Below are positions 16,934 through 38,451 of a stretch of 55,173 nucleotides of DNA, in pieces. The position numbers were made by a program, and so were the translations under genes. Origin of the DNA: Sphaerochaeta sp. Phil3. GTDB taxonomy: Bacteria; Spirochaetota; Spirochaetia; Sphaerochaetales; Sphaerochaetaceae. Numbering within the stretch: the stretch's first letter is position 1; the number at the start of each line of letters is the position of its first letter. Below the pieces are notes generated by a model. That model saw only the letters and a list, made by a program, of their open reading frames with translations, did no database searches and was not told where the DNA came from. The DNA is taken from NCBI GenBank assembly GCA_001940825.1, contig MSGT01000031.1, positions 1-55,173 of the forward strand, written 5' to 3'.

Positions 16934-16957
16934 GTTTAAGATCAAAAGGAGTACAAG

Positions 16958-21614: not shown

Positions 21615-22445
21615 TCAAATGGCAACTGGGATATCGTATTTCTTCTTACAGTATTCGTAGCCCTCAAGTTTGAAATCATCCTCCGTAAAGGCGTAGAAGT
21701 CTTTTACGTTGGGGTTAACGATAAGCTTTGGGGCTTTGTATGATGTATTGTCCAGCATTTCCTTTACTATTGGTATGTGCCTGTCGTAGATGTGTGCATC
21801 TGCAATTACATGCACCAGTTCTCCAGCCACAAGGCCACTGACCTGAGCCATCATTACAAGCAATATACTGTATTGCACTACGTTCCAGTTGTTGGCTGTA
21901 AGCATGTCCTGGGACCTTTGGTTGAGGATTCCGTTCAGGACGTTCCCGCTTACGTTGAACGTCATTGAGTATGCACAGGGGTAGAGTCCCATTTCGCTTA
22001 GGTCATGGTGGTTGTATATGTTGGTGAGTATCCTTCGGCTTTGAGGGTTGTGTTTGAGGTCGTAGAGAACTCTGTCGACTTGGTCGAATTGCCCTTCTGG
22101 ATATTTGTGCTTGACTCCAAGTTGGTAGCCATAAGCCTTGCCTATGGAGCCTTCTTCATTTGCCCAGTTGTCCCATATGTGGCTTTTTAGATCCTTTACG
22201 TTGTTGGACTTCCTTTGCCATATCCAAAGAAGCTCGTCTATGGCGGACTTCATGTAAGTCCTTCTTAGCGTCATTATTGGAAATTCCTGTCTTAGGTCGT
22301 AGCGATTGACTATGCAGAACTTCTTTATCGTATGGGCTGGCGTTCCATCCGCCCAGTGGGGGCGAACCTCCAAGTCGGCATCTGAATAGCCGTTCTCAAG
22401 AATGTCTCGAACGTTCTCCTTGAATATGTCATCGGCTCTGCTCAT
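21615..22445 (-). CDS. thyA: Thymidylate synthase, ThyA of the B. subtilis/phage type
   Basis: 276 residues, dUMP to dTMP with methylene-tetrahydrofolate. Features that match B. subtilis ThyA rather than the E. coli type: DGTPAHT near residue 32, ELLWIWQRKSNNV, and YPCAYSMTF around the catalytic Cys, where the more usual motif is PPCH. RSQDM and HIYDRH supply substrate-binding Arg, Asp and His. The frame is open to 22517, but ATG 22445 has AAGGAG upstream. It heads the thyA-folA-DHH-DHH-surE cluster. Confidence 0.94.
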   Translation of the reverse strand: MSRADDIFKENVRDILENGYSDADLEVRPHWADGTPAHTIKKFCIVNRYDLRQEFPIMTLRRTYMKSAIDELLWIWQRKSNNVKDLKSHIWDNWANEEGSIGKAYGYQLGVKHKYPEGQFDQVDRVLYDLKHNPQSRRILTNIYNHHDLSEMGLYPCAYSMTFNVSGNVLNGILNQRSQDMLTANNWNVVQYSILLVMMAQVSGLVAGELVHVIADAHIYDRHIPIVKEMLDNTSYKAPKLIVNPNVKDFYAFTEDDFKLEGYEYCKKKYDIPVAI

Positions 22446-22519
22446 GGTGTTTCTCCTTGGCTTTTCGCATTTCCAGGCTCCCTCGTTTTGCATGAAATGG
22501 GGCTCTTCGCTGAACATCC

Positions 22520-22548
22520 ATTATCGCAAAAGAAAGTGGTAGTTTCAA
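22520..22548 (-). promoter_or_regulatory. Promoter of the thyA cluster
   Basis: Minus strand TTGAAA (22543-22548), 17-bp spacer, GATAAT (22520-22525) with an extended TG one base upstream of the -10. This gives a leader of about 70 bases to thyA. Confidence 0.65.
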
Positions 22549-22602
22549 CAAGGACTCTGGATGTTGCAGGACTAGGACTTACAGGTGCCTCCTACCCTTG
22601 CA

Positions 22603-22608
22603 TATAAT
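22603..22608 (+). promoter_or_regulatory. Likely -10 element of the NhaC gene
   Basis: A consensus TATAAT with TTGCA before it. No convincing -35 (TTACAG at 22579-22584 is weak). GGGAAAAACCCC just downstream could fold as a small hairpin in the leader. Confidence 0.4.
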
Positions 22609-22692
22609 GGGAAAAACCCCTATGGTTGATACGCTGTGTTCAGGTATTCAAGCTCGAAAGAGCAAAGATGAAAGAAAAGGGAGTTGGTAGTT

Positions 22693-24201
22693 ATGTCGAA
22701 TTCGGGAATTAGTGATGTGAAATGGAGTTCGAGGAAGACCATAATAGCCGCTGTTTTGGTCGTTGCTTGCTCTTTTCTTATGGCATGTCTCATACCGGAG
22801 TCCATGAGGGGCTCTTCGTCCTATGGGATATTCTCCGTCATTCCAGCCGTCTTTCTCATAGCCTATATATTCTTCACCAAAAGGATTTTCGAGGCCCTCA
22901 TACTTGCATCCCTGATGGGGTACATTATGATTGGTCCAATGGATGCCGTGAACAGCTTTAGCACTGGAATACTTGATGTCATGATGTCCGAGGACATTGC
23001 ATGGCTCATAATCGTGTGTGGTCTTATGGGAAGCGTCATAGCCATGGTTGAGAAAGCCGGTGGGGCATGGGCTTTTGGAGAGTGGGTCGCAAAGAAAGCG
23101 AAGACCAGGACGTCCGTTCTCATATGGACATGGGTGCTTGGTATCGTGATATTCCTTGACGACTACCTCAATGCACTTGTCATTGGGTCCTGCATGTCTC
23201 CTCTGTGCGACAAGCACAAGGAACCAAGGGAGTTCCTTTCGTTCATTGTCGATTCCACTGCCGCTCCTGCATGTGTTCTCATTCCAATATCAACATGGGG
23301 AGTCTTCTGTGGAAGGCTACTTGAAGCCAATGGCTGGGCTCCTCATGGAGAAGGGCTTGCGTACTTCATCAAGACCATACCATTTAATTTCTATGCGTGG
23401 ATAGGCATCCTGATAGTGCCGTTCTTCATCTTCAACATAATCAAACCATTCGGTCCAATGAAGAAGGCTTACGAGCGTGTGGCCAATGGCGGACCTATAG
23501 TGCCAGAAGGATCGGAGAAGGTTGATATAAGAGGCGGTCGTCCAATCATGGAGCATGAAAACGCCAGAATCGTCAACTTCTTCATCCCAATCCTTTCGCT
23601 GATATTCTTTGCGATGATTCCTGTCTTCAAGTCCAAAAGCGTTGGAGACTTGGACATGCAGCTTGGTGTCATATGCACCCTTGCGGTGTGCTTCGTGCTT
23701 TATCTTGCCCAAGGCGTCATGACGGCAGGAGAGTATTGGGAGTGCTTCATAGGCGGTCTCAAGAACATGCTCAACTCAATCCTCCTGATGATCCTTGCAT
23801 TCCTTTTTGCGGACATGAACGAGAAGATTGGCTTCACTTACTACATGATACACACTGCCGAGAGGTTCATGACACCTCAGCTCATGCCTCTTGTCATATT
23901 CGTCATCCTGTCCATAACTGAATTCGTGACTGGTACGAACTGGGGAATGTACATCATAGCACTTCCTATCGTCATTCCTCTTGCAATGGACATGGGTGTG
24001 AACGTGGCTTTGGCAGTCAGCGCCGTCGTATCCGCCGGTGTCTTTGGAAGCCATATTTGCTTTTATTCCGATGCCACAGTAATTACATCTGCTGCAACGG
24101 GATGCGACAACTTTGCCCATGCAAAGACACAGGTGCCATACGGGCTTCTTGCAGCGGCGATAACAATGGTCATGTATCTTATCGCAGGTTTCATTTTCTA
24201 G
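22693..24201 (+). CDS. NhaC family Na+/H+ antiporter
   Basis: 502 residues, about 11-12 helices. FLDDYLNALVIGSCMSPLCDK and STWGVFCGRLLE carry the polar membrane residues of the NhaC family (PF03553). The second half contains TEFVTGTNWGMYIIALPIVI and GSHICFYSDATVITSAATGCD, a family signature. It exchanges Na+ (or a carboxylate or amine counter-ion in relatives) for H+ at the inner membrane. A TTG at 22684 is in frame; ATG 22693 with AAGGGAG upstream is preferred. It stands alone, divergent from the thyA cluster. Confidence 0.9.
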   Translation: MSNSGISDVKWSSRKTIIAAVLVVACSFLMACLIPESMRGSSSYGIFSVIPAVFLIAYIFFTKRIFEALILASLMGYIMIGPMDAVNSFSTGILDVMMSEDIAWLIIVCGLMGSVIAMVEKAGGAWAFGEWVAKKAKTRTSVLIWTWVLGIVIFLDDYLNALVIGSCMSPLCDKHKEPREFLSFIVDSTAAPACVLIPISTWGVFCGRLLEANGWAPHGEGLAYFIKTIPFNFYAWIGILIVPFFIFNIIKPFGPMKKAYERVANGGPIVPEGSEKVDIRGGRPIMEHENARIVNFFIPILSLIFFAMIPVFKSKSVGDLDMQLGVICTLAVCFVLYLAQGVMTAGEYWECFIGGLKNMLNSILLMILAFLFADMNEKIGFTYYMIHTAERFMTPQLMPLVIFVILSITEFVTGTNWGMYIIALPIVIPLAMDMGVNVALAVSAVVSAGVFGSHICFYSDATVITSAATGCDNFAHAKTQVPYGLLAAAITMVMYLIAGFIF

Positions 24202-24286: not shown

Positions 24287-27238
24287 ATGCACTACGATTT
24301 GAAGAGATGTCTATGTGGGGATTTTCAAACGATTGAAATTGGAAAGCTTTCACCCAGAAGCTACTTCATACCATATCCGACCAAGGAGGCTGCTTCATCC
24401 TGCACGCTGCTGGAGAAGCGCTACAGGTCACCTCTTGTGAAGGTTTTGAACGGAACATGGGATTTCATCTACTATGACGATCCAAACGATCTCCCATCCT
24501 CCATAGAGACCGATTCCTCAAAGACCGATGCCCTTGAATTTGGCACTATAGACGTACCTTCATGCTGGCAGTTCAAAGGCTATGGGAAGCCTGCATACAT
24601 AAACCTTCGCTACCCGTTCAGATTTGCACCACCAAAAATCCCTGTTGACAAGCCCGTTGGTTGGTATTTCAGTGTTCTGGATGGAATAAGGCACGCACCA
24701 AAGGGCGAGTGGAACCACATTGGACTGTATAGGACGTTCTTTGATGTTGGAGATGCCTCCAAAAAGTACATACTTTCCTTCCTTGGCGTTGCAAGCTGTA
24801 TGGAGCTGTACATAAACGGCTCGTTCGTAGGGTATTCCGAGGAGTCCCATAATACTGCTGAGTTCGATGTCTCTTCCTTGGTTCATGAAGGCTCCAACGA
24901 AATGCTTGTTTTGGTTCGTAGATGGTGCAGCGGAAGCTATCTTGAGTGTCAGGATATGTTTAGAAACAATGGTATATTCCGCGATGTTCTGCTAAGGACG
25001 ATGGACGAAAACGATGTTTGGGACATTGATTTCAAAACAAACAAGCACGGAGAACTCTATGATGCGACTGTCGTCGTAGATGTGACAGGGCCGCTTGAGG
25101 TCTCCGTCTCATTGGAAGGCCATGGCATTTCCCTTAGACAGTCCAAAGACTCAAATGAGGCTCATGGAGGATCAATTTCGTTTGAATTCAAGGACATAGA
25201 CGCTAAACAATGGAATGCGGAGCAACCGAACCTCTACGACCTGTACATAGAGACGAATGGTTCATGCATACACGAGAGGGTTGGCTTCAAGGATGTTGGA
25301 ATAGAGGGAAGGGTCTTCAAGGTGAACGGAACGCCTGTGAAGCTCAAAGGCGTCAACCATCATGATACGAGTCCGTCCAACGGGTACTGTATGAAGCCAG
25401 AGGAACTTGAGAGGGATGTTAGGCTGTGCAAACGGTTCAACATTGACACCATAAGGACGTCCCATTATGCGCCGGACCCGCTTTTGCTTGAACTTGCGGC
25501 CGAATATGGTCTCTATATCGTGGACGAGGTGGACCTTGAAACTCACGGGGTGTATGTGCAAAAGCTGCCTCCTTCGATGAATTGGCTTTCAAACGATCCA
25601 AAGTGGAGTGCCCGCTATGTGGACAGAGCGGTGCGACACTACAACCGCGACAAGATCCTCTCGACGCCTGTTGTGATGTGGAGTCTTGGAAACGAATCCG
25701 GAGATGGTTGCAACACCTATGCGATGTACGAGTATTTCAAGAGTGTATCGAAACTTCCTGTGCACTACGAAAGTGCGGTCCATGCAAGGCGCAAGGCATA
25801 TGACGTTGCAAGCCAGATGTATCCGCCTGTCAAGGATGTTGCTGCAGCGGGAGAGGGGAAGAGCCGTACAAGACAGTTCAACGATCGTCCGTACTTTTTG
25901 TGCGAGTACGCCCATGCAATGGGGGTTGGTCCTGGGAACATAGAGGGTTATTGGAACGAGATATACAAACATGAAAGCCTCATGGGCGGATGCGTATGGG
26001 AGATGGTTGACCATGCGGTCATGCATAAGGATTCAAAAGGGGAAGTCCATTACGAATATGGAGGCGACAACGGGGAGTGGATACATGATGGGAACTTTTG
26101 TGTGGATGGAATCTTCTATCCAGATAGAAGTCCTTCTACAGGTGCATGGATTGTTCGCCATGCCTACAGACCAATGAGGTTTTCAAGGGTGGATGGCTCC
26201 ATCTTTGAGGTGTTCAACACAACAGGATTCACCCATGGCAGCGCGTTTCGCATAGTCTGTACGGTTGGATCGTTCGCATCCTTTGACATTGACATTGATG
26301 TAGCGCCTTTGGAACGCAAGTCGTTTGATATTCTGACCTACATGCCAATTGGTACGACCCTTGACGGCATGGAGTTTGTTAGGTTCGATGTCTATGATGC
26401 AAATGGTGCTTTGGTTGGAACCGACCAGATTGAAATCTCAAAGCCTGTTCTTCCTTGTCCAGAGACTACAGAAGCCTCTGTTCAGCTGCCTTCGTTCATG
26501 GAAACGCCAAAGACTCTGCTTTTCAGGGCGGCTACAGACAATGACAAACCTTTGTTCAGACCCAATCCAATGAAGAAGTGGTACTTGCAAAGGGAGGATG
26601 TGTTCGAAAGGAAGCCTCTTGCCAACGGCGGCTTTTGCACTATGTCCAACATAATCGCCGCTGGAAACAGATTCCTGTGTGTGGACGAGTACCGCTGTTG
26701 TTCCGCACCACCGGGGTTTGAAGAGGCTGTGTTCGTGAAATCCGTTCTTCATCCTGTGAATGCACATGGGACGATTCCACGTTTTGGGAAGACGTTCAAG
26801 CTCGGCTCGTCGTTCGACGCTGTAAGGTGGTTTGGACGAGAGAAGGAATCATACGTGGATATGAAGGAGCAGAGTCCAATTGGAGAGTATTCAGGGCATG
26901 TGTGCGATATGACAGAGCCAAACATTCGCCCTCAGGGGAGCGGCAACCGCTGCGATACCCAATGGGTGGAGATTGAAAACGATGGTCTGATTGTGCGATT
27001 TGATGCTGTAAACGAGCCGTTCAATCTTGGAATAAAACCTTATTCCGATTTAGAGCTTACCAAAATGAAACATCGTGAGGACGAGGTCCGTACAGGTACA
27101 TATGTAACGCTGTCTGCATTCCAACAGGGCATTGGCACGGGAAGCTGTGGCCCATACACCCTAAAGGAGCATATGTATTCTGCAAAGAAAGACTATGAGC
27201 TGTGTTTTGTTGTATCATGGAAAGCGAAGAGGAGATGA
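24287..27238 (+). CDS. Beta-galactosidase, glycoside hydrolase family 2 (LacZ-type)
   Basis: 983 residues. Jelly-roll sugar-binding domain (VPSCWQFKGYGKPAYIN, LYRTFFDV, YINGSFVGYSEES), Ig-like domain to about 340, then the TIM barrel with KGVNHHDTSPSNG, DTIRTSHYAPDP, acid/base Glu in SLGNESGDG and nucleophile Glu in FLCEYAHAMG. The C-terminal beta-sandwich 'small chain' domain follows, ending QGIGTGSCGP. No signal peptide, so it is cytosolic and hydrolyses imported beta-galactosides. It precedes an inositol-monophosphatase-like gene by 6 bases. In the LacZ C-terminal domain WFGR is conserved. Confidence 0.93.
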   Translation: MHYDLKRCLCGDFQTIEIGKLSPRSYFIPYPTKEAASSCTLLEKRYRSPLVKVLNGTWDFIYYDDPNDLPSSIETDSSKTDALEFGTIDVPSCWQFKGYGKPAYINLRYPFRFAPPKIPVDKPVGWYFSVLDGIRHAPKGEWNHIGLYRTFFDVGDASKKYILSFLGVASCMELYINGSFVGYSEESHNTAEFDVSSLVHEGSNEMLVLVRRWCSGSYLECQDMFRNNGIFRDVLLRTMDENDVWDIDFKTNKHGELYDATVVVDVTGPLEVSVSLEGHGISLRQSKDSNEAHGGSISFEFKDIDAKQWNAEQPNLYDLYIETNGSCIHERVGFKDVGIEGRVFKVNGTPVKLKGVNHHDTSPSNGYCMKPEELERDVRLCKRFNIDTIRTSHYAPDPLLLELAAEYGLYIVDEVDLETHGVYVQKLPPSMNWLSNDPKWSARYVDRAVRHYNRDKILSTPVVMWSLGNESGDGCNTYAMYEYFKSVSKLPVHYESAVHARRKAYDVASQMYPPVKDVAAAGEGKSRTRQFNDRPYFLCEYAHAMGVGPGNIEGYWNEIYKHESLMGGCVWEMVDHAVMHKDSKGEVHYEYGGDNGEWIHDGNFCVDGIFYPDRSPSTGAWIVRHAYRPMRFSRVDGSIFEVFNTTGFTHGSAFRIVCTVGSFASFDIDIDVAPLERKSFDILTYMPIGTTLDGMEFVRFDVYDANGALVGTDQIEISKPVLPCPETTEASVQLPSFMETPKTLLFRAATDNDKPLFRPNPMKKWYLQREDVFERKPLANGGFCTMSNIIAAGNRFLCVDEYRCCSAPPGFEEAVFVKSVLHPVNAHGTIPRFGKTFKLGSSFDAVRWFGREKESYVDMKEQSPIGEYSGHVCDMTEPNIRPQGSGNRCDTQWVEIENDGLIVRFDAVNEPFNLGIKPYSDLELTKMKHREDEVRTGTYVTLSAFQQGIGTGSCGPYTLKEHMYSAKKDYELCFVVSWKAKRR

Positions 27239-27244
27239 TCTGCC

Positions 27245-28060
27245 ATGGATTCAAAGGCTTTGGATTTGGAAAAGCTGCTCGAAGATGTGAAGAGGGTTGT
27301 TCTTGAAGCTGCGCCTCTTATGGACATGGGCACCGCCCAGGTATTTGAAAAGGACGGGGTGAGCAATCTTGTGACAAGTGCGGACCTTGCGGTGCAGCAC
27401 TACCTTGCGAAGGAACTTCCTTCCCTCGTTCCCGGATGCGGTTTCTTTGGAGAGGAGGAGCATCTGTGCTCCAAAGGCGATGGCCGCAGATGGATTGTCG
27501 ATCCCATAGACGGAACTGCGAACTTCACAAGGCGTTTGGGCCAGTCCGGGATATCGGTAGCTTTCGTGGATGGCGACGACATTCTTCTTGGCGTTGTCTA
27601 CAACCCTGTCTCCAAGGAGATGTTCTGGGCTGTGAAAGGGAAGGGTTCGTTCCTGAACGGAAAGCCTCTTCATGTCTCCAACCTTGATTTCCAACACAGC
27701 ATATACTGTACAGCCTTTAGCCTTTACCGCAAGGAGTTTGCACAGGTGTGCAACGACATTCTCATGGACGCATATTTCCAATGCGCAGACTTCCGCCGAT
27801 TTGGGGCGTGTTCTCTTGAGATGTGCTATCTTGCCGCTGGAAAAGTCGATATGTTCTTTGAGATACGTCTTTCTCCTTGGGACTACTGTGCCGCAACGCT
27901 CATCGTAAGGGAGGCTGGGGGCTTTGTAGAGGGCTTTGACGGAGCTTCTCCTTCGTTGGAAAAACCCTGCCCTTTGGTCGTTGCCAATTCAAGGGAGAAT
28001 CTGGAAAGGCTGAAAGGCATCATAGCAAGGCATTTGAAGGAAGTTCCATACAAAGATTGA
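27245..28060 (+). CDS. Inositol-monophosphatase-family phosphatase
   Basis: 271 residues. GFFGEEE, WIVDPIDGTANF and LSPWDYCAATLIVREAGG are the three metal-binding motifs of the family (PF00459). Members dephosphorylate inositol phosphate, fructose-1,6-bisphosphate, histidinol phosphate or NADP, and sequence alone does not decide. GAGGAG upstream sets the start. The tight link to the beta-galactosidase gene suggests co-expression, though no shared pathway is obvious. Confidence 0.88.
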   Translation: MDSKALDLEKLLEDVKRVVLEAAPLMDMGTAQVFEKDGVSNLVTSADLAVQHYLAKELPSLVPGCGFFGEEEHLCSKGDGRRWIVDPIDGTANFTRRLGQSGISVAFVDGDDILLGVVYNPVSKEMFWAVKGKGSFLNGKPLHVSNLDFQHSIYCTAFSLYRKEFAQVCNDILMDAYFQCADFRRFGACSLEMCYLAAGKVDMFFEIRLSPWDYCAATLIVREAGGFVEGFDGASPSLEKPCPLVVANSRENLERLKGIIARHLKEVPYKD

Positions 28061-28069
28061 CGGTTTTTT

Positions 28070-29071
28070 CTACAGGATTCCAAGCCCTTTTAGAAACAAA
28101 CCTATGTTCCTTTTGTATTCGTCAGGGTAGTCAATGACGCTTTGTGCATGGGCGGATCCTTCGTACAGGCAAAGAGTCCTCCCTCTTTTCTTGGCCTCAT
28201 ATACTTCATGGACCATTCTGGTTGGAACGAAGGTGTCTGCATCTCCATGACAAAAGAGCATTGGTATGCTTGTTTCCTTCATTGCCTCCTTTGCGTCTAT
28301 GGCGTAGAGATTCCATTTGAAAAGCCTCTCTATGATTTTTGAGCCAATTTGCATAGTAGGCCAGGACGGAAGATGCATGGATTTGAACACGGCACGGGCT
28401 TCTTCTTCCATACTGGAATACCCACAGTCGTCAATGGCGAACGAAAGCTCTGGTATGAGGTGTGCTGTCTGCATGACGACTGCACCTCCCATGGATTCTC
28501 CAAGAAGCCCCCACGTACAGTCCTTTCCAAAGCGTGTCTTGATGTAGTCGAAGAGATCCTTGAGGTCCAGAGACTCGAAGTACCCCATGCTACAGCATAC
28601 TCTCTTTCCTTTTGTGTCCATCCTGTCGCTTTGGCCGTGTGCCCTGTGATCATAGAGCACGACATGGAAACCGTAGTCCAACATGATCTTAGCATAGGGG
28701 TACATTGAGCTGTAGTTTCCTGTATAGCCATGTACTATCACGATGGCTTTCTCTGGGGCTGAGGCATCGGCCTTGTCCGTTGTGGGGTGCATGACGATTC
28801 CCCTTAGGGTGTAGCCTCGTGGTGAGACGAACGAGAAGTCTTCGTGTGGATGGGTGCTTTCAAGGGCGTTGCAATCGAAATGATGTACTTCCTTGAGGTA
28901 GTTCCGTGATTCTTCGTGTGGGTGTACCTTTGGAAATGTGAGCATCGTCACGAACTTGGATGTTGCCAATGCGACAGCTGCCGCTATCAGAATTATTGCA
29001 ATGATCGCTATGGAAAGTGTCGTCATGTTTGAAAGATAGTATTGGAACATTCTGATTTCAAGCTTTTCCAT
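28070..29071 (-). CDS. Membrane-anchored alpha/beta hydrolase
   Basis: 333 residues. One N-terminal helix (SIAIIAIILIAAAVALA), then an alpha/beta fold: VHGYTGNYSSMYPY (oxyanion loop), YDHRAHGQSD, nucleophile Ser in LLGESMGGAVV, Asp in HGDADTFVP and His near the end in EGSAHAQS. The substrate is probably a lipid or small ester; related enzymes are annotated as monoacylglycerol lipase or peptidase-like. ATGs at 29050 and 29026 are alternative starts; none has a good ribosome site. It converges on the phosphatase gene and is divergent from the LacI regulator. Confidence 0.82.
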   Translation of the reverse strand: MEKLEIRMFQYYLSNMTTLSIAIIAIILIAAAVALATSKFVTMLTFPKVHPHEESRNYLKEVHHFDCNALESTHPHEDFSFVSPRGYTLRGIVMHPTTDKADASAPEKAIVIVHGYTGNYSSMYPYAKIMLDYGFHVVLYDHRAHGQSDRMDTKGKRVCCSMGYFESLDLKDLFDYIKTRFGKDCTWGLLGESMGGAVVMQTAHLIPELSFAIDDCGYSSMEEEARAVFKSMHLPSWPTMQIGSKIIERLFKWNLYAIDAKEAMKETSIPMLFCHGDADTFVPTRMVHEVYEAKKRGRTLCLYEGSAHAQSVIDYPDEYKRNIGLFLKGLGIL

Positions 29072-29117: not shown

Positions 29118-29146
29118 TTGACAGATACCACAAGCCGTGTTTTCAT
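29118..29146 (+). promoter_or_regulatory. Promoter of the lacI-tct operon
   Basis: TTGACA (29118-29123), 17-bp spacer, TTTCAT (29141-29146). A consensus -35 with a 4/6 -10. Both LacI-type operators lie downstream of the predicted start, at about +38 and +81. Confidence 0.6.
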
Positions 29147-29189
29147 CTACATAGAGTTTGGTTTTTCATTGTAAATCCTTAAGCTGTAA

Positions 29190-29201
29190 GCAAACGTTTG
29201 C
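29190..29201. promoter_or_regulatory. LacI-family operator O1
   Basis: GCAAACGTTTGC, a perfect 12-bp palindrome with central CG, followed by ATAT. This is the classic LacI/GalR half-site arrangement. Confidence 0.85.
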
Positions 29202-29232
29202 ATATGACTTGATGGGTGCGGTGGAACATGGT

Positions 29233-29244
29233 GCAAACGTTTGC
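29233..29244. promoter_or_regulatory. LacI-family operator O2
   Basis: A second identical GCAAACGTTTGC followed by ATAT, 43 bp from the first (about four helical turns). This suits a bridged repressor on one face of the DNA. Confidence 0.85.
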
Positions 29245-29286
29245 ATATCCAAAAGGGCGGTTGAAGGCCGCTCAAAAGGGAAGGAA

Positions 29287-30294
29287 ATGGCGAAGTATAC
29301 GACGTTGAAGGATGTTGCTCAGAAGGCTGGAACCACCATTGGAACGGTTTCGTATGTCCTCAACGGGAACGGAGAGAGGTACATAAGCGAAGAGACCCGT
29401 CGCAAGGTCATGGAAGCTGCAGAGGAGCTTCATTACATCCGTGACAAAGGAGCCTCCTCCCTCAAAGGCGGCCATCGCAGGCTCATAGGTATCCTCATCC
29501 CTCAGTTCGAGAACCAGTTCTTCACCCGTATCGTCATGGCGGCGGAGGCGGTCTTCGTCAAGCATGGCTACGACATGATAATAACCAACACGTTGGACGA
29601 CCCTGAAAGGGAGAAGTCCATAATCCGCAGGATGCTTGAGCAAAGGGTGGACGGCATAATCGTCACGCCAACGGCAAAGGGTGCTGAAAATACGGAGCTT
29701 GCGCGCAGCGTTGGAATGAAGATGGTCGTCGTCGACCGCCCGTTGGAAGGTGTGAACGACTACTATTGGGTCACCACCAACAACTACGGCTGTGGCTTCA
29801 AAGGCATTGAATACCTCATGTCAATGGGTCACAGGAAGATAGGCTATATTGGTTGGAACTCTGGAATTCTTGACCTCGCCGCCCGTGAAAAGGCTGCTCT
29901 GGATGCTGCTGGAGACAAGGCCATGGTGTATGTGGAGAACGGTGAGTTCTCCGCTGCGGAGGGCGGCAGACTTACAAGGAAGATACTTGAAGAGCATCCA
30001 GACATAACGGCGCTTTTCTACGGATTCAACATACAGGCTCAGGGAGGAGTGAACGAGCTAAGAAGAATGGGCTTGACAATTGGTCGTGACATATCGGTCA
30101 TGCTCATTGGAACTCCAATGTGGACCTACACGGGGCTCAATGACTTCTCAAGGCTGGATATGGGTGACTTTGAACTTGGGAAGACCGCAGCCCAGGTGCT
30201 GTTGGACCAAATCCAAGGAAAGCCCATGCAACCAAAACAATATATTCATGACTGCAGCGTCATAGAAGGCGACTCGGTCTTGAAAATAAACTAA
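29287..30294 (+). CDS. LacI family transcriptional regulator
   Basis: 335 residues. N-terminal HTH: TLKDVAQKAGTTIGTVSYVLNG, then the hinge helix around residue 55 and a periplasmic-binding-protein-like sensor (RRLIGILIPQFENQFFTRIV to GTPMWTYTGLNDFSRLDMG). The frame is open upstream from 29158, but ATG 29287 starts the family domain and has GGGAAGG before it. Two operators in its own leader imply autoregulation. It is the first gene of an operon with a TTT transporter, an oxidoreductase and a TIM-barrel isomerase, so its inducer is probably their substrate or product. Confidence 0.92.
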   Translation: MAKYTTLKDVAQKAGTTIGTVSYVLNGNGERYISEETRRKVMEAAEELHYIRDKGASSLKGGHRRLIGILIPQFENQFFTRIVMAAEAVFVKHGYDMIITNTLDDPEREKSIIRRMLEQRVDGIIVTPTAKGAENTELARSVGMKMVVVDRPLEGVNDYYWVTTNNYGCGFKGIEYLMSMGHRKIGYIGWNSGILDLAAREKAALDAAGDKAMVYVENGEFSAAEGGRLTRKILEEHPDITALFYGFNIQAQGGVNELRRMGLTIGRDISVMLIGTPMWTYTGLNDFSRLDMGDFELGKTAAQVLLDQIQGKPMQPKQYIHDCSVIEGDSVLKIN

Positions 30295-30310
30295 AGGAGG
30301 GGAAGGAAGT

Positions 30311-31324
30311 ATGAAAAAGATCCTTACCACAGTTATGGTTCTTGCTCTCGTTGCAATGTGCGCATTCGCACAGGCAGCACAGGAGGAGGTCTATCCAAAC
30401 AAGAACATCAACCTCACAGTACCTTATGGTGCAGGTGGAACAACAGATTTGACAGCAAGAGCTCTTGCAAACGCAATGGGTGAGAAGCTTGGCGTCACAA
30501 TCAACGTCATCAACACTCCTGGTGCTGGTGGAAGCGCAGGAACCCTCAACGTTCAGAACGCAAAGAACGATGGATACTCACTTCTTGCCAATGGAATGCT
30601 TGCATTCTGCACAATGCCAATCAACGGCTACACCGACAAGACCTTCCGCGAATGGGACATTTGGATTGCAACATACGCACCAAACGTAATCGTCGTTCCT
30701 GCCAACTCCCCATTCAACACAATCCAGGACCTCATTGAGGCTATAAGACAGAATCCTGGTCAGATCACAGCTGGTACGGCAGGCATTGGCTCCGGTGGAC
30801 ACTTTGGCGCTGAGGTCATCAAGTCAATTGCCGGTGCAGACTACAAGCACATCACATACAATGGCGGAGCCGCTGCTTTCACAGCAACTCTCTCCGGTGA
30901 AGTCCAGTTCTGCCCACAGCTTCTTGCCGAGTACAAGGATGCAATCATTGGCGGACAGGTCAAGGCCCTTTGCACACTCTCAGACGAAGACATCACGATT
31001 GCAGAAGGAATCACGATCCCTTCCATCAAGGATTTCTATCCAGAAGCTGCAAAGTTCCTCCCAATGGGTGAGGTCACAGGTATCCTCGTTCCAAAGGGAC
31101 TTCCAGAGTCATATCTTGAAAAGCTCGACGAAGCTTTCGCAGTTGCAGTCAAGGACAAGGCTTTCTTGGATTTCTGCGAGTCGAAGAGCTTCTCCGTCAA
31201 CGTCTACGACAGACAGCACTCCCAGGAGTTCATGGAGAACTTCGCATCAAAGGCTTGCTGGCTCATGTACGATGCTGGTGCAGTCACAATCAGCCCAGCT
31301 GACTATGGTATCAACAGACTGTAG
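30311..31324 (+). CDS. tctC: Tripartite tricarboxylate transporter substrate-binding protein (TctC/Bug)
   Basis: 337 residues. Signal peptide LTTVMVLALVAMCAFA-QA. The mature protein starts YPNKNINLTVPYGAGGTTDL, the canonical Bug ligand loop, then VINTPGAGGSAGT and GTAGIGSGGHFG. It is a periplasmic receptor that binds carboxylates in known members; here the ligand may be a sugar acid. AGGAGGGGAAGG precedes the ATG. A strong hairpin follows the gene, consistent with higher expression of the receptor than of the membrane parts. Confidence 0.92.
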   Translation: MKKILTTVMVLALVAMCAFAQAAQEEVYPNKNINLTVPYGAGGTTDLTARALANAMGEKLGVTINVINTPGAGGSAGTLNVQNAKNDGYSLLANGMLAFCTMPINGYTDKTFREWDIWIATYAPNVIVVPANSPFNTIQDLIEAIRQNPGQITAGTAGIGSGGHFGAEVIKSIAGADYKHITYNGGAAAFTATLSGEVQFCPQLLAEYKDAIIGGQVKALCTLSDEDITIAEGITIPSIKDFYPEAAKFLPMGEVTGILVPKGLPESYLEKLDEAFAVAVKDKAFLDFCESKSFSVNVYDRQHSQEFMENFASKACWLMYDAGAVTISPADYGINRL

Positions 31325-31339
31325 TTCCAATTCTTGAAC

Positions 31340-31367
31340 GCTCCGTCCCAAAGAACTGGGACGGAGC
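31340..31367 (+). other. Strong hairpin between tctC and tctB
   Basis: GCTCCGTCCCA (31340-31350) pairs perfectly with TGGGACGGAGC (31357-31367), 6-base loop, with no T-run. Probably an RNA stability element protecting the tctC message, or partial attenuation. Confidence 0.75.
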
Positions 31368-31390
31368 CCATATTTGTTAGGATTTTAAAA

Positions 31391-31900
31391 ATGGATAGAA
31401 ACACCAAGGATTTCGTTTTTTCCTTTGCCCTTGCCGCTCTTGGAGCCTACTTTGCAATAGAAGGGTTCTCCATATACAAAAGGGTTGCAGGACCACCTTT
31501 CAAGATTGAGAAGCTTAGCCTGTCACCAGGTTTCCTGCCTTTCGTTCTTGGCATTCTTCTAGTTTTCTTCAGCGTTCTTCTTTTCATTTCCACTATGAAA
31601 GGAGAGAAGGATTTTGGCACTGCATTCGTGGAGCGTTGGAAAGTCGTTGGCAAGTGGTTTGCAGACGCCTCACGCAACAAGGAATACTACTTCACAATTG
31701 GTGCAGTCGTCATAATGTTCATCTATTCGTATCTGCTTTTGAGCGTTCTGCCTTTCTGGGCTGCATCGCTTGTCTTCCTCGTTGGCATATTCCTCTACCT
31801 AAAGGCTGGAGTATGGTGGAAGTCCATCATCGTCGCAGTTGCAGCAGTGGTCTTGACGGTCGTGATCTTCAAATACTGCTTCAACGCAGCTCTTCCTTGA
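31391..31900 (+). CDS. tctB: Tripartite tricarboxylate transporter small membrane subunit TctB
   Basis: 169 residues with four hydrophobic helices: DFVFSFALAALGAYFAIEGF, then SPGFLPFVLGILLVFFSVLL (the conserved PG-LPF element), and two more at YFTIGAVVIMFIYSYLLL and the C-terminus. It matches the TctB family. ATG 31391 with AGGA upstream; an earlier TTG (31334) lies inside the hairpin and is rejected. Confidence 0.85.
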   Translation: MDRNTKDFVFSFALAALGAYFAIEGFSIYKRVAGPPFKIEKLSLSPGFLPFVLGILLVFFSVLLFISTMKGEKDFGTAFVERWKVVGKWFADASRNKEYYFTIGAVVIMFIYSYLLLSVLPFWAASLVFLVGIFLYLKAGVWWKSIIVAVAAVVLTVVIFKYCFNAALP

Positions 31901-31908
31901 GGTGAAAC

Positions 31909-33405
31909 ATGGCATTGCAATATATATCAACAGCATTTGCAACAGTCTTCCAGCCAATGAACCTTCTTGTCATGTGCCTGTCCACATTGGCAGGTCTCGT
32001 GATGGGTATGCTTCCAGGCCTTTCAGCAACGATGGCCATAGCTCTCTTGACTGGACTTACATACAACTTCCCAACGCAGACGGCAATCATAGCGTTGCTC
32101 TCCATCTACGTTGGTGCAATATCAGGCGGTTGCCAGTCGGCAATCCTTTTGAACATTCCTGGAACCCCTGCCTCTGCAGCTACAGCCCTTGACGGACATC
32201 CACTGGCAAAGCAGGGACGTGGCGGTCTTGCAATTTTCCTTGCAACGACTTCCAGCTTCCTTGGGACGTTTCTGAGCGTCATCTTCGTAATGACCCTTAC
32301 ACCGGTTCTTACGAAGCTTGCACTCAAGTTTACATCCTGGGAGTTCTTCCTCCTTTCAATCTTTGGAATCCTTATATGTGGAACCATCACATCCACGGAG
32401 TCCCAGATTAAAGGCTGGATAGCAGGAATACTTGGACTTATGGTCTCCATGATAGGTTTGGATTCCGTAAACACCGTAGCTCGCTTCTCGTACGGAAACG
32501 TGAACATGATGTCCGGCATCCAGCTCATCCCTGTCATGATAGGACTCTTTGGCTTCCCAGAGATCCTCAAGGCGTTCAAGCTGAACAACGATGAACAGGT
32601 CATCCCTTCAAGCAAGTTCGAAGCAAAGGAAGGCTTCAGGCTCATGGGGCGCAACATGGTCAAGGTCATCCGCTCCGCCGCCATTGGCGTTGGGGTTGGA
32701 ATCATCCCAGGTGTTGGCGAAGACACAGCCGGTTGGCTTTCATATTGGGCTACAAAGAGCCTTTCCCCTGAAGAGGAGAAGAAGACCTTTGGATCCGGAA
32801 ACCCTCGTGGGGTCATTTCCGTAGAGGCTGGAAACAACGCCTGCATTGGAGGAGCCATAATTCCTGTCCTGTCGTTGGCAGTTCCTGGGTCTGCTCCTGC
32901 AGCCGTCCTTTTGGCTGCATTCTACATGCATGGCTATAGGCCAGGTCCTCTTCTTATGACCGAGTCCCCAAGTTTCCTCTACAACGTGTGCATCTACATT
33001 GCCATTGCATCGTTCTGCACGTGGCTCCTTGCCCTCGTTCTTTCGAAGGGAACCGTCAAGATCCTTGGAATTCCAAAGAAGTACCTCATGCCAATCATCT
33101 ACACACTGTGCGTGATAGGCTCGTACCTTATCAACTACAACATGTTCGACGTCAAGGTCATGTTCGTGTTTGGAATCTTTGGAACTCTCCTTACCTCGCT
33201 GCACTTCCCAGCCGCTCCGTTCCTCCTTGGTGTAATTCTTGGGCCTATGTGCGACTCCAACCTAAGAAGGGCACTGAACCTCTCCGATGGTTCGCTCGCT
33301 CCTCTTGTACAGCGTCCAATCTGCATATTCTTCCTGGTCCTCATCGTGGTCATGATCCTCGCCCAGCTTGGAGTATTCAAGAAACTCATGGGGAAGAAGG
33401 CATGA
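31909..33405 (+). CDS. tctA: Tripartite tricarboxylate transporter large membrane subunit TctA
   Basis: 498 residues, about 12 helices. GLVMGMLPGLSATMAIALL and GAISGGCQSAILLNIPGTPA are the family signature, repeated in inverted form as GVGVGIIPGVGEDTAGWLSY and NACIGGAIIPVLSLAVPGS. It is the ion-coupled channel that takes ligand from TctC. TGAGGTGA is upstream. The stop overlaps the oxidoreductase start by ATGA. Confidence 0.93.
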   Translation: MALQYISTAFATVFQPMNLLVMCLSTLAGLVMGMLPGLSATMAIALLTGLTYNFPTQTAIIALLSIYVGAISGGCQSAILLNIPGTPASAATALDGHPLAKQGRGGLAIFLATTSSFLGTFLSVIFVMTLTPVLTKLALKFTSWEFFLLSIFGILICGTITSTESQIKGWIAGILGLMVSMIGLDSVNTVARFSYGNVNMMSGIQLIPVMIGLFGFPEILKAFKLNNDEQVIPSSKFEAKEGFRLMGRNMVKVIRSAAIGVGVGIIPGVGEDTAGWLSYWATKSLSPEEEKKTFGSGNPRGVISVEAGNNACIGGAIIPVLSLAVPGSAPAAVLLAAFYMHGYRPGPLLMTESPSFLYNVCIYIAIASFCTWLLALVLSKGTVKILGIPKKYLMPIIYTLCVIGSYLINYNMFDVKVMFVFGIFGTLLTSLHFPAAPFLLGVILGPMCDSNLRRALNLSDGSLAPLVQRPICIFFLVLIVVMILAQLGVFKKLMGKKA

Positions 33406-34490
33406 TACAGAAGGCCGATGGAATCTTCTACGCCCCACAGTCCACGGGAAAGGTCGTGAAGACTGTGGGTGAGGGGGAGTTCTTCTTCTCCGTCATAGGG
33501 CTTGACCATGGTCACATATACGCCATGGTCAACGGCCTTACTGAGGCGGGGGCCACGCTCAAGGACGTCTATGACCCGGACCCCGCAAAGGTCAACGCTT
33601 TCATAGACCGATTCCCCTGCGCCCACCCTGTCTCCTGCGCCGACGAGATTCTGCTGGATTCCTCCATACAGCTTGTGGCTTCTGCAATCAGACCTGACAA
33701 GAGGGCTTCGTTGGGTGTGGCTGTCATGAAAAGCGGTCATCACTATTTTACGGACAAGCCTGGAATGCTCACGTTCGATGACCTAAAAATCGTACAACAG
33801 GTACAAAAAGAGACCAATCGTTGGTTTATGGTCTATTTTGGAGAGCGTATACATGTGGAGGGTGCTGTATGCGTCCAACGTCTTATAGACGAAGGAGCCC
33901 TTGGCCGAGTTCTCTCTGTGACCATCCTTGCTCCCCACCGTTTGAACAAGGAGACCCGTCCAGGCTGGTTCTTCAATCCTGATGAGAACGGTTCTATACT
34001 GTGTGACATTGGATCGCATCAGTTCGAACAGCTCCTTTCGTATACTGGAGCCCGCAGCGGGCGAATAGAGTACAGCGAGGAGCGCAATTTCAACAATCCC
34101 GACCATCCACATTTCACTGACTTTGGGCAGGCCGTCATAGGTTTGGACAATGGTGCAACAGGCTATATAAGGGTCGATTGGTTTACACCCCCAGGGTTAT
34201 CGGCTTGGGGCGATGGCAGGGTTTTTATCGTGGGTACGAAGGCTACGGTTGAGATCCGCAAGTACATAAACGTTGGCGTTTCCATGGAAGGTGACAATGT
34301 GTTTCTGGTGGATGCAGACGGTGAGCATGTCATAAATGCGACCGGCAAGGAGGGTTTTCCTTTCTTTGGCGCATTCGTCCGCGACTGCCTTGACGGGACG
34401 CAAACCTGTATGACGCAGGCTCATGTGTTTGAGAGTATGCGCCTTACTCTTGAAGCTCATGACAAGGCCTGTGGCAACTGCGTCCATTAG
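33402..34490 (+). CDS. Gfo/Idh/MocA family oxidoreductase
   Basis: 362 residues. VIGLDHGHIYAMVNGLTEAG is an atypical dinucleotide-binding start (GLDHGH in place of GxGxxG). DKPGMLTFDDLKIV, with the Lys-Pro of the family EKP motif, and a C-terminal beta-sheet domain with ILCDIGSHQFEQLL (conserved Asp and His) follow. Members oxidise or reduce sugars, inositols or sugar acids with NAD(P). Read from ATG 33402, overlapping tctA; the longer frame from 32988 is only the shadow of tctA. It probably acts on the compound imported by TctABC. Confidence 0.88.
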   Translation: MIQKADGIFYAPQSTGKVVKTVGEGEFFFSVIGLDHGHIYAMVNGLTEAGATLKDVYDPDPAKVNAFIDRFPCAHPVSCADEILLDSSIQLVASAIRPDKRASLGVAVMKSGHHYFTDKPGMLTFDDLKIVQQVQKETNRWFMVYFGERIHVEGAVCVQRLIDEGALGRVLSVTILAPHRLNKETRPGWFFNPDENGSILCDIGSHQFEQLLSYTGARSGRIEYSEERNFNNPDHPHFTDFGQAVIGLDNGATGYIRVDWFTPPGLSAWGDGRVFIVGTKATVEIRKYINVGVSMEGDNVFLVDADGEHVINATGKEGFPFFGAFVRDCLDGTQTCMTQAHVFESMRLTLEAHDKACGNCVH

Positions 34491-34520
34491 ATCGTTTTCA
34501 TAAGGTTGGAGGTAAGTGCC

Positions 34521-35291
34521 ATGGAATATGGCTTTTGCACAGGTTTCGCTTCGACTCCGCTATGGGAAATCCAGAGTCCCATGCTCGACAGGATTGTGGA
34601 AGCTGGCTTTGACTATGCCGAGCTTCCAGCCATGAGTTTTGCGGACATGGACTCCTGTGGGTTTTCATCTGTGCTTGGAGCTTTTGAGGCTCCTGTCGCA
34701 TGCAATCTCTTCCCTGGAAGGATTCCATTGGTTTCCTGGGAAAGGGATTTGTGCGTCATCTGCGATTACTTGGATGTTGTGCTTTCCCGTGCCGTCTCCC
34801 TTGGAATAGGAAAGATCGTCTTTGGAAGCGGTGCTTCCCGCAGCTACGACCCTTCGTGTATGTCGTTCGATGAGGCAATGGAGCGTTTGAGGGAGCTTGT
34901 TTCGTCTGTGGTGGTTCCAAAGGCCAGCGAATATGGTGTGACCATTCTCCTTGAGCCGTTGAAACGGGGTGAATGCAACCTAATAAACACAGTGGAGGAG
35001 GGCTATTCGTTCGTCCGTGACATCTCCTCTCCTTGGTTCTTGCTTATGGCTGACATCTATCACATGAACTCCAATGGAGAGCCTCTCTCTTCTCTGGAGG
35101 CTTCTTTGGACGTGGTTCATCACATCCATATTGCAGGTAGTGAGCGTTCTTTGGAGGGCACTCTTTGCAATCCATATATTCTACGTGCTTTGTCTTTGCT
35201 TAAGTCCCGCGGCTACGATGAGACGATTTCCTTCGAAACCTGCGACGGCGACATGGCTGCTGCGCTGAAAACTCTCAAAGCCATCATTTAG
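34521..35291 (+). CDS. Sugar phosphate isomerase/epimerase-like TIM-barrel protein
   Basis: 256 residues. GFDYAELPAMSF, GIGKIVFGSGASR, TILLEPLKRGECNLINT (metal-binding Glu), LLMADIYHMNSNGE (Asp/His) and HHIHIAGSERS (His), with a final ISFETCDGD Glu, fit the xylose-isomerase-like AP-endonuclease-2 fold. Such enzymes interconvert keto sugars, sugar acids or inosose. GGAGG before ATG 34521; a TTG at 34506 is too close to it. Last gene of the lacI-tct operon. Confidence 0.85.
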   Translation: MEYGFCTGFASTPLWEIQSPMLDRIVEAGFDYAELPAMSFADMDSCGFSSVLGAFEAPVACNLFPGRIPLVSWERDLCVICDYLDVVLSRAVSLGIGKIVFGSGASRSYDPSCMSFDEAMERLRELVSSVVVPKASEYGVTILLEPLKRGECNLINTVEEGYSFVRDISSPWFLLMADIYHMNSNGEPLSSLEASLDVVHHIHIAGSERSLEGTLCNPYILRALSLLKSRGYDETISFETCDGDMAAALKTLKAII

Positions 35292-36344: not shown

Positions 36345-37079
36345 TCACTGCTTCTTCATCTGCCGTAGGAATGCAAAGACTGCAAGAGCGGTTATGGCAA
36401 TTCCATAGCCTAAAACCCACAACATGTGCGGTAGGGCTGTGGAGAAGTCTCCTGCGAGTATGGCGCGTTCGAATTCGACTGCATGGATGAACGGCAGCAG
36501 GCTGGCGATCTTTTCAAAGACGCTTCCAAGCATGGAGATATTGAACCATATTCCGGAAAGCCATGCAGAAAGGTTTGTAAGAAGGGCTCCGCACAGGCCT
36601 CCTACCTGAGTCTCTGTCAACGTGCTTCCGCAAAGGAGTCCTAGAGAGGCGTAGAACAACGCCGGAACAAGAATAAGCAAAACGCTCCATAGGACGTTGA
36701 TGGTGATTTCCAAACCCAGAATCCACGCTGCAACGTAGCATAGCAAAGCCTGTGCAATGGCAATTGCAAAGAATGGAAGCATGTAGCCCAGTACGAAATC
36801 CAAAGGTTTCATTGGAGTCGTGTAGAGCCTTTGGAGAAACGATGTATCTCTGTCCTTTGATACAAGCTGCCCTGCAAACAATGTTATGAACGATAACCCA
36901 AATACCGTTATGCCTGGTGTAAGGGTGTTCAGTTCAAACATCGAAACCGGAATGTTCGATTGTATCAGACTCAAAAGCAACAGCAGAACCAACGGAAACC
37001 CAAGACCAAAGCCCAGAGTCAAAGGATCCCTTAGGATCTCCTTGAATGTTCTTCCTGAAAAGGATGCCATTCGACTCAT
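36345..37079 (-). CDS. ABC-2 type transporter permease
   Basis: 244 residues, six helices. SRMASFSGRTFKEILRDPLTLGFGLGFPLVLLLL is the ABC-2 first segment and DTSFLQRLYTTPMKPLDFVLGYML the conserved amphipathic loop. The protein partners with the ATPase encoded immediately upstream (ATGA overlap). Export of a drug, lipid or peptide is likely. It is the last gene of a TetR-ATPase-permease operon. Confidence 0.88.
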   Translation of the reverse strand: MSRMASFSGRTFKEILRDPLTLGFGLGFPLVLLLLLSLIQSNIPVSMFELNTLTPGITVFGLSFITLFAGQLVSKDRDTSFLQRLYTTPMKPLDFVLGYMLPFFAIAIAQALLCYVAAWILGLEITINVLWSVLLILVPALFYASLGLLCGSTLTETQVGGLCGALLTNLSAWLSGIWFNISMLGSVFEKIASLLPFIHAVEFERAILAGDFSTALPHMLWVLGYGIAITALAVFAFLRQMKKQ

Positions 37080-37849
37080 GCCTTTGCCTCCTTTGATGTA
37101 CCTTTTGATGCGTTCTTCACAATCTCTATGAATGCACTTTCTATGCTGTCCTTGCCGCTTTTGGCCTTCATCTCCACGGCTGTGCCGCAGAACACAAGAC
37201 GGCCTTCTTTCATGATGCCTATTCTATCTGAAAGGGCTTCCGCCTCCTCCATGTAGTGGGTCGTCAGTACAATGGTCATCCTGGATTTCAACTCGCGGAT
37301 GGTGTCCCAAAGCTCGCTGCGGGCAATTACATCAAGTCCAAGTGTGGGTTCGTCCAAAAACAGTATCTTAGGTTCGCTGATCAGCGCCATTGCAAGGCTG
37401 AGTCTTCGCTGCCAGCCTCCTGAGAGCTTTGCGGCTTTGCGTGCGGCAACCTGCGAAAGACCAAACGACCCCAAAGATCCACGGACCTTCCTTGCCGTTT
37501 TTTCCTTGTCAAAACCATGGACTCCGCACATGAGCTTAAGGTTCTCCTTGACGCTGAGGTTCCTTGCAATCGCCGATTGCTGGGGGGAGACTGCAATGAT
37601 CTTCTTCACATCAGTTGGACGGGACTTTACGCTCATGCCGTTTACGAAGGCATCTCCGCAAGTGGGGGAGCTTACGCATGAAAGCATCTTTATGGTAGTT
37701 GTTTTTCCTGCACCGTTTACACCTAGAAGAGAGAAGAGTTCCCCTTGGTATATGGTCAGGTTCAAGGAGTCAACGGCCCTTACGTCCTTGTAGTCCTTTG
37801 TAAGGTTCTTTGTCTCGATTGCGGTCGTCATGTCCGGCATCCCCTTCAT
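37076..37849 (-). CDS. ABC transporter ATP-binding protein (exporter, DrrA/CcmA type)
   Basis: 257 residues. Walker A GVNGAGKTT, signature LSGGWQRR, Walker B ILFLDEPTLGLD, switch His in VLTTHYMEEAE. This is the single-domain, multidrug/antibiotic ABC-2 class. The start overlaps the TetR stop by ATGA. Later ATGs at codons 4 and 7 are also possible because AAGGAG and AAGGGG sit at suitable distances from them. Confidence 0.9.
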   Translation of the reverse strand: MKGMPDMTTAIETKNLTKDYKDVRAVDSLNLTIYQGELFSLLGVNGAGKTTTIKMLSCVSSPTCGDAFVNGMSVKSRPTDVKKIIAVSPQQSAIARNLSVKENLKLMCGVHGFDKEKTARKVRGSLGSFGLSQVAARKAAKLSGGWQRRLSLAMALISEPKILFLDEPTLGLDVIARSELWDTIRELKSRMTIVLTTHYMEEAEALSDRIGIMKEGRLVFCGTAVEMKAKSGKDSIESAFIEIVKNASKGTSKEAKA

Positions 37850-38451
37850 TCTCCTTTTTCTTGTTCCTTCTTTCTCAGTTCAAGTCTTAGCTTGAGTCCT
37901 TCGAAGACATTGGTGAGGCAGGTGCTTGCCATGTCTGCATCCAGGTTCAAAAACGAGGTCGCCTGCATTGCGGCTATTCCGTGTACCACTGACCACATCT
38001 CAAGATGAAAAAGCTGTGCTTCTTCGTGTGGTAGGTCATAGTTCGCCATGAGCATGGATACTATCTCTTCGAAGCTTGCATTCTGGACATCCTCTTTTTC
38101 ATTCGTTCTGTCTCTCATGAACAATAGGTTGAATAGATTTCTTTCATCCTTTGAAAACTGGATGTATGCCATGCCGCTGGCCTTGTATGGCGGATACTTC
38201 GACTCTGACATTGCCTGCCATATATAGGAATGGTAGAACTCGTTGGCCTTGTAGATGACGCTGGCAAGCAACTCCTCCATTGTGGAGAAGTTGTAGAAAA
38301 GCGGTTGTGTGGAACAGCCTATACGACGTGCTAGGTTGCGGGCGTTCAGCGATTCCACTCCGTTTTCTCGTACCATCTCAAATGCCGTGTCTATTATTTG
38401 CTGTCTGTTGGTCTTTGCTTTTGGTGGCACTTCAAATCTCTTATAACGCAT
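37846..38451 (-). CDS. TetR family transcriptional regulator
   Basis: 201 residues. N-terminal HTH NRQQIIDTAFEMVRENGVES with LARRIGCSTQPLFYNFSTME; the C-terminal half is a WHG-like ligand domain (NLFNLLFMRDRT, EEAQLFHLEMWSVVHGIAAM). The promoter -10 abuts ATG 38451 and there is no ribosome site for it. Translation may therefore begin at GTG 38430, which has AAGAGA upstream and still keeps the whole HTH. Paired operators over the promoter imply autorepression and control of the following ABC exporter genes. Confidence 0.88.
   Translation of the reverse strand: MRYKRFEVPPKAKTNRQQIIDTAFEMVRENGVESLNARNLARRIGCSTQPLFYNFSTMEELLASVIYKANEFYHSYIWQAMSESKYPPYKASGMAYIQFSKDERNLFNLLFMRDRTNEKEDVQNASFEEIVSMLMANYDLPHEEAQLFHLEMWSVVHGIAAMQATSFLNLDADMASTCLTNVFEGLKLRLELRKKEQEKGE

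Follow-up and report, generated by a model that had tools for sequence, protein, structure and literature searches.

A LacI-controlled tripartite tricarboxylate transporter operon with sugar-type enzymes in Sphaerochaeta sp. Phil3, and its probable role in acidic-sugar uptake

Introduction

Characterised receptors of tripartite tricarboxylate transporters (TTTs) mostly bind carboxylates; to our knowledge few TTT receptors have known ligands, and those of sugar type are very rare. Here we describe an operon from Sphaerochaeta sp. Phil3 in which a TTT is encoded together with a LacI-family regulator, a Gfo/Idh/MocA oxidoreductase (Gfo1) and a xylose-isomerase-like protein (XI). The operon lies on contig MSGT01000031.1 (contig C31 of the 2.36-Mb genome, G000, in our numbering), positions 1 to 55,173 of which form the stretch analysed (the window). 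We consider it rather probable (about 0.6) that this operon directs the inducible uptake and redox-isomerase catabolism of an acidic sugar, with a hexuronate or a uronic-acid glycoside as the likeliest substrate, because homologues on a sister branch of Gfo1 lie beside hexuronate genes, the TctC receptor is close to an alginate receptor, and the genome carries genes for uronate and 2-keto-3-deoxygluconate (KDG) metabolism.

Closely related systems have been described. The structure 25HK is that of the alginate-oligosaccharide receptor (TTT-C) of Vibrio sp. C42 (PMC13390454). Operons that combine oxidoreductases with TIM-barrel proteins run a sequence of oxidation, elimination, hydration and reduction, as for levoglucosan in Bacillus smithii and with GlycDH/AtOGE in A. 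tumefaciens (PMC10628242). The ycj cluster of E. coli encodes the dehydrogenases YcjS and YcjQ, the epimerase YcjR, the LacI-type regulator YcjW and an ATP-binding cassette (ABC) carrier (PMC11543891). A sequence-only reading of the window had set the carboxylate preference of TTTs against the sugar-type enzymes found here; that contrast largely vanishes should the ligand be a uronate, and transport of uronic-acid oligosaccharides by a TTT is itself published (PMC13390454).

Results

A LacI-led operon with paired operators

The operon consists of six intact and closely packed genes, all on the + strand, in the order lacI-tctC-tctB-tctA-gfo1-xi, and the family assignments of all six products exceed the Pfam cut-off. 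The LacI-family regulator (29290..30294; Pfam LacI and Peripla_BP_3) is followed by the complete set of TTT subunits in the order C-B-A: the periplasmic solute-binding protein TctC, with a signal peptide (30311..31324; Pfam TctC, 131.6 bits), the small membrane subunit TctB (31391..31900; Pfam TctB, 51.7 bits) and the large membrane subunit TctA (31909..33405; Pfam TctA, 453.7 bits). gfo1 (33402..34490), whose product has both the N- and C-terminal Pfam domains and belongs to the 2p2s/3u3x subfamily of Gfo/Idh/MocA oxidoreductases, overlaps tctA in the sequence ATGA; a gap of 30 bp separates it from xi (34521..35291; Pfam AP_endonuc_2), which encodes a TIM barrel of the ketose 3-epimerase type. 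The sequence-only reading had thus named the gene set correctly. Its description of TctCBA as bracketed by the other genes needs correcting: lacI opens the operon and is no separate bracket, and both enzyme genes lie 3' of the transporter genes, not on either side.

Two exact copies of the palindrome GCAAACGTTTGC, neither assigned to a strand, are found 5' of the lacI ATG at 29190..29201 and 29233..29244, their starts being 43 bp (about four helical turns) apart. Both had been noticed from the sequence alone, and the genome-wide search proposed at that time returned these two exact copies and no others in the 2.36 Mb. When the 218-nt leader was dinucleotide-shuffled 20,000 times, a single exact copy of GCAAACGTTTGC appeared in one shuffle and a repeated 12-bp palindrome of any kind in none (0/20,000). 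An alternative lacI start exists (TTG, 29158); the ATG at 29290, which is 3' of the operators, is preceded by a good ribosome-binding site. A weak operator-like match, GCAAACGTTTTC, on contig C47 was rejected as an operator since it lies within the first part of a second tctA gene.

The LacI orthologues in the TTT operons of relatives are 47-64% identical to that of the window, and every relative leader read, except that of the Fusobacteriaceae, has an exact or one-mismatch operator 5' of lacI. These operators are mostly paired, at spacings of about 31-32, 43-44 or 66-67 bp; the 43-bp spacing recurs at loci L026, L036/L111 and L112, and L025 has one of 44 bp. In most relative genomes searched the pattern is confined to this operon; in one genome, G032, three extra matches occur beyond it. 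The protein combines a LacI helix-turn-helix with a sugar-type ligand domain and has a palindromic operator at its own operon. Because the operators are conserved and mostly confined to the operon in relatives, there is good evidence that LacI is a dedicated local regulator; the position of lacI at the head of the operon makes its autoregulation probable.

Relatives of Gfo1 lie beside hexuronate genes

In a tree of 68 Gfo1-family sequences the TTT-linked members cluster, with three label changes compared to 13.8 in shuffles. In five phyla, members of the sister branch adjoin genes for mannonate dehydratase, uronate isomerase, mannonate/fructuronate oxidoreductase or GH67 alpha-glucuronidase. 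Gfo1 homologues adjoin mannonate dehydratase and mannonate oxidoreductase in Bacillus, and UxaC in Oceanobacillus; they occur with ManD, fructuronate reductase and 2-keto-3-deoxy-6-phosphogluconate (KDPG) aldolase in Arthrobacter, with UxuA/UxaC/oxidoreductase in Opitutales and Puniceicoccaceae, and with UxuA and tripartite ATP-independent periplasmic (TRAP) carriers in two spirochaetes. In Bacteroidota the homologue is near GH67 alpha-glucuronidase and UxuA, an arrangement that could represent a glucuronoxylan side-chain pathway. Across the family the adjoining carriers include the TTT, TRAP, glycoside-pentoside-hexuronide (GPH) and ABC types. Several of the Bacteroidota homologues (L082, 2432-9865; L103; others) have N-terminal signal-like extensions, with a PF16490 oxidoreductase and ThuA nearby.

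Away from the operon, the window genome itself encodes glucuronate isomerase (UxaC; 562 bits, cut-off 387) and, in the same cluster, a protein resembling fructuronate reductase (51% over 527 aa), together with KduI, a KDG-kinase-like protein and KDPG aldolase. UxaC is present in 8/8 genomes of relatives with the TTT operon compared to 70/101 overall, and is therefore not discriminating.

The TctC pocket is nearly invariant

The best match of TctC in the PDB is 25HK (E 1.7e-30), with BugD a close second (E 1.1e-29). TctC shares with 25HK the carboxylate-binding loop, P-[FY]-G-A-G-G-x-T-D, and the equivalent of Pro104; the loop residues are compatible with cation-driven import of a carboxylate-bearing ligand. 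From 25HK to TctC, Gly24 changes to Thr, Gly183 to Ala, Thr225 to Glu and Arg227 to Thr, and these substitutions are identical in nearly all orthologues, among which the ligand-site residues as a whole are almost invariant. The citrate-contacting proline of BugD is threonine or serine in TctC and its orthologues. Because the pocket substitutions are so nearly identical, we infer that the orthologues bind one conserved ligand, probably carboxylated and rich in hydroxyls, that is neither citrate nor alginate.

The operon is a recurring module

Among Gfo1 homologues retrieved from public genomes and relatives, TctCBA-Gfo1 occurs at no fewer than 14 other loci in Spirochaetota, Bacillota and Fusobacteriota. 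The hosts include several Spirochaetaceae and Sphaerochaetaceae, Oscillospiraceae, Candidatus Ventrimonas and one Fusobacteriaceae metagenome-assembled genome. An orthologous LacI is the first gene in most of these loci; it was not detected beside the operon in the three Oscillospiraceae loci. The layouts seen in relatives are LacI-TctCBA-Gfo1-Gfo2-XI; LacI-TctCBA-Gfo-Gfo1, with a different partner Gfo and without XI; and TctCBA-XI2-XI-Gfo2, found in genomes of the same genus and in G021. The window presents a fourth, with Gfo1 and XI and no partner Gfo, whereas in most relatives a second Gfo gene adjoins Gfo1. The same-genus genomes lack a close Gfo1, and several carry TctCBA-XI2-XI-Gfo2 instead. 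A route of oxidation, elimination and reduction by way of a 3-keto intermediate would call for a dehydrogenase, a lyase with a hydratase and a reductase encoded together; relatives have either two Gfo and one XI or one Gfo and two XI. The window has one of each, and has either lost the second Gfo or never had it.

The sequence-only reading knew of no standard pathway with exactly this make-up. That statement holds in the literature searched, yet the locus is no one-off: it is a module that recurs, in which known families form a combination that is conserved and has drawn little notice. The literature covered contained no work joining TTTs with a uronic acid and an oxidoreductase, or a glucuronide with 3-keto chemistry and Gfo/Idh/MocA proteins, and nothing relevant on the demethylation of 4-O-methylglucuronate.

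Variation extends to the carriers. At one Clostridium locus an orthologous LacI (50%) and Gfo1 accompany a sugar ABC carrier that replaces the TTT, and at two Oscillospiraceae loci (L034, L035) a TRAP carrier lies 3' of a TTT-Gfo1-Gfo2-XI operon, so that two tripartite carriers are adjacent. Four loci of the TctCBA-XI2-XI-Gfo2 layout (L152, L153, L154 and L161) are without Gfo1; LacI was not detected on their contigs, which are short.

Catalytic residues and structural neighbours of the enzymes

In the alignment of the Gfo1 family, the catalytic lysine of the D-K motif (K119), D202 and H206 (D-x-x-x-H) are invariant, as are several Arg residues; in Gfo1 'DHGH' replaces the usual GxGxxG. The AlphaFold2 model of Gfo1 (predicted local distance difference test score, pLDDT, 90.7) resembles 3u3x (VIA Z 49.8, root-mean-square deviation (rmsd) 1.0, 330 aligned) and 2p2s (VIA Z 48.0, rmsd 1.6, 332 aligned). 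Against NCBIfam models Gfo1 scores 32.8 bits for levoglucosan dehydrogenase and 31.9 bits for inositol 2-dehydrogenase (IolG), below the cut-offs of 650 and 355 bits. C3 is a common position of action among sugar-active Gfo/Idh/MocA members. Records from a rhizobial plasmid and Paenibacillus, in which the partners are Gfo and VOC or carry no annotation, gave no hint of the substrate.

XI retains the E-D-H-E metal and catalytic set of the 3-epimerase fold (E145, D178, H203 and E239, all invariant in the alignment). The structural neighbours of its AlphaFold2 model (pLDDT 90.2) include D-tagatose/D-psicose 3-epimerases, TM0416 and YcjR (VIA Z 24-27, rmsd 2.3-3.0). TM0416, also among the best PDB sequence matches, gave Z 26.3 and rmsd 2.3 over 241 aligned residues; YcjR, a 3-keto-D-glucoside 4-epimerase, gave Z 24.2 and rmsd 3.0 over 243. 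The best NCBIfam model for XI is IolO (5-keto-L-gluconate epimerase), whose score of 59.1 bits is below the cut-off of 300. The fold comparison does not tell epimerase from eliminase, and the matches listed include no C- or O-glycoside eliminase, an absence that carries no weight.

A Gfo2 homologue beside a second TTT

The Gfo2 proteins of relatives are closest to WlbA dehydrogenases (WlbA having been solved with UDP-GlcNAcA, according to structure titles) and also match 8TDI, deposited as a glucuronide-3-dehydrogenase; their best NCBIfam model, IolG, is below cut-off (146 against 355 bits). In the Phil3 genome a Gfo2 homologue that shares 57% identity with the Gfo2 of L025 is located at G000:C47:17595-18641, beside a different TTT. 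It might supply the missing partner of Gfo1 in trans. Because similar clusters of a second TTT and a Gfo2 gene also occur in G065 and G076, a simple move of the C47 gene out of the window operon is no more than a possibility.

This second TTT locus (L105, G000:C47:10000-28000; record 15861-23049) comprises a 416-aa gene whose product has a winged-helix-like start (ROK-type by eye), the Gfo2-family oxidoreductase, TctC, a likely TctB, TctA and a 390-aa protein that by eye is M24 peptidase-like.

Promoter, stem-loop and flanking genes

A possible but weak sigma-70 promoter was recognised by eye on the + strand at 29118..29146 (TTGACA at 29118-29123, 17 nt, TTTCAT at 29141-29146); it is absent from the consensus scan list, its -10 box having no A at position 2. 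Between tctC and tctB, at 31340-31367, is a strong 11-bp stem-loop (GCTCCGTCCCA/TGGGACGGAGC) with a 6-nt loop, which could stabilise the message or partly terminate it and so yield a surplus of TctC.

The region 5' of the operon (24287-29071) encodes a LacZ-type beta-galactosidase, an inositol-monophosphatase-family protein and, on the reverse strand, an alpha/beta hydrolase, with no indication that these genes belong to the operon. On the 3' side (36345-38451) a reverse-strand block, named by eye, comprises an ABC-type exporter-like permease and ATPase and a TetR-like regulator.

Discussion

We propose a scheme, including its ligand, the order of its reactions and the carbon position at which they act, in which LacI, bound to the paired operators, would repress its own operon until released by a sugar ligand, either the substrate or a product. 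Periplasmic TctC would capture the acidic sugar, which TctBA would then bring in with a cation. In the cytoplasm Gfo1 would oxidise or reduce a ring hydroxyl in an NAD-dependent manner, and the metal-dependent XI would epimerise the keto intermediate or beta-eliminate from it; in relatives a second Gfo would close the redox cycle. The product would then enter the glucuronate/KDG pathway, for which genes exist elsewhere in the genome. A more specific version, a TTT-fed, non-hydrolytic route for a uronic-acid glycoside or rare hexuronate, in which a non-citrate, non-alginate receptor delivers substrate and a 3-keto (or other keto) uronate is cleaved or epimerised by Gfo1, a partner Gfo and XI on the way to the KDG pathway, is a tentative possibility that we rate much lower than the broad acidic-sugar proposal.

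A number of observations weigh against the proposal. No uronate gene was found within 9 kb of any TTT-type locus, that of the window included, and the link to uronates passes through a sister branch with an identity of about 45-51%. The residues named for alginate specificity in the receptor of Vibrio C42 type (Gly24, Gly183 and Thr225) are not conserved in TctC, no NCBIfam model of a characterised enzyme reaches its cut-off for Gfo1 or XI, and a UxuA-family dehydratase was not found in the window genome. With one Gfo in the window, a partner supplied in trans would be needed to balance the redox cycle, and the C47 Gfo2 may instead serve the other conserved cluster, with the second TTT, to which it belongs.

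The substrates offered by the sequence-only reading were a sugar acid, an inositol-type polyol or a sugar. The acid is now the best supported, through the hexuronate links, the similarity of TctC to the alginate receptor and the uronate/KDG genes. Import of inositol or another neutral polyol or sugar, with Gfo1 as an inositol-type dehydrogenase and XI acting on the inosose or keto product, appears improbable. It would suit the LacI-family regulator, since such regulators are typical of sugar operons, and the similarity of XI to TM0416; IolO and IolG are also the best NCBIfam models for XI and Gfo2. Those scores, however, are far below cut-off (59 against 300 and 146 against 355 bits), Gfo1 reaches only 32 bits for IolG, and no further inositol gene was recognised within the operon. 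The carboxylate-binding loop of TctC and the hexuronate ties of the sister branch likewise speak for an acid. Alternatively, the transporter could be a conventional TTT that carries citrate, a dicarboxylate or some other small carboxylate, in which case the enzymes would act on a non-sugar keto acid and control by LacI would be incidental. We regard this as very unlikely: BugD matches TctC nearly as well as 25HK does, and most characterised TTT receptors bind carboxylates, but the proline with which BugD contacts citrate is replaced, LacI, TTT, Gfo and XI stay linked across phyla, and the same Gfo1 family is found beside GPH and sugar ABC carriers.

It is also conceivable, if unlikely, that the copy in the window is decayed or partial, so that without a second Gfo the pathway has stopped, or Gfo1 and XI alone carry out a different reaction. 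The second Gfo beside Gfo1 in most close relatives and the same-genus genomes, which lack a close Gfo1 and in several cases carry TctCBA-XI2-XI-Gfo2, would fit such a history. Nevertheless, the open reading frames in the window are all intact and closely spaced, with perfect operators and conserved catalytic residues, and a Gfo2 homologue is present on C47.

The acidic-sugar proposal makes this operon of LacI, TTT, Gfo and XI, shared by spirochaetes and gut Firmicutes and furnished with a near-invariant receptor pocket, a defined test case for uronate or uronide uptake. Such uptake, if true, would give a function to a widespread Gfo1 subfamily. Its solved members 2p2s (Pectobacterium; 42% identity to Gfo1) and 3u3x (Sinorhizobium; 39%) are deposited as putative oxidoreductases only, and the partner genes of distant homologues differ, as in the rhizobial Gfo-Gfo-VOC arrangement.

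The Uxu/Uxa/KDG loci of Bacillus, Oceanobacillus, Arthrobacter, Opitutales and Bacteroidota share a Gfo1 homologue, usually with a partner Gfo; where a carrier was recognised it is of the TRAP, GPH or ABC type, with no LacI-TTT, whereas no hexuronate enzyme was found within 9 kb of the window operon. The alginate TTT of Vibrio sp. C42 (25HK; PMC13390454) serves uronic-acid sugars and is the closest solved match of TctC; its locus is GntR-linked, with lyases and a 4-deoxy-L-erythro-5-hexoseulose uronate (DEH) reductase and no Gfo or XI named, while that of the window is LacI-controlled. The operons of PMC10628242, like that of the window, place Gfo/Idh/MocA oxidoreductases and barrels annotated 'sugar phosphate isomerase/epimerase' in one operon; the window differs in having one Gfo and one XI, neither reaching an equivalog cut-off, a TTT importer and LacI control. 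Although the ycj cluster has an ABC carrier and phosphorylases for neutral glucosides, and the window is without a second dehydrogenase, the LacI-TTT-Gfo1-Gfo2-XI operons of relatives match ycj in uniting two dehydrogenases, an XI-like epimerase, a LacI-type regulator and a carrier.

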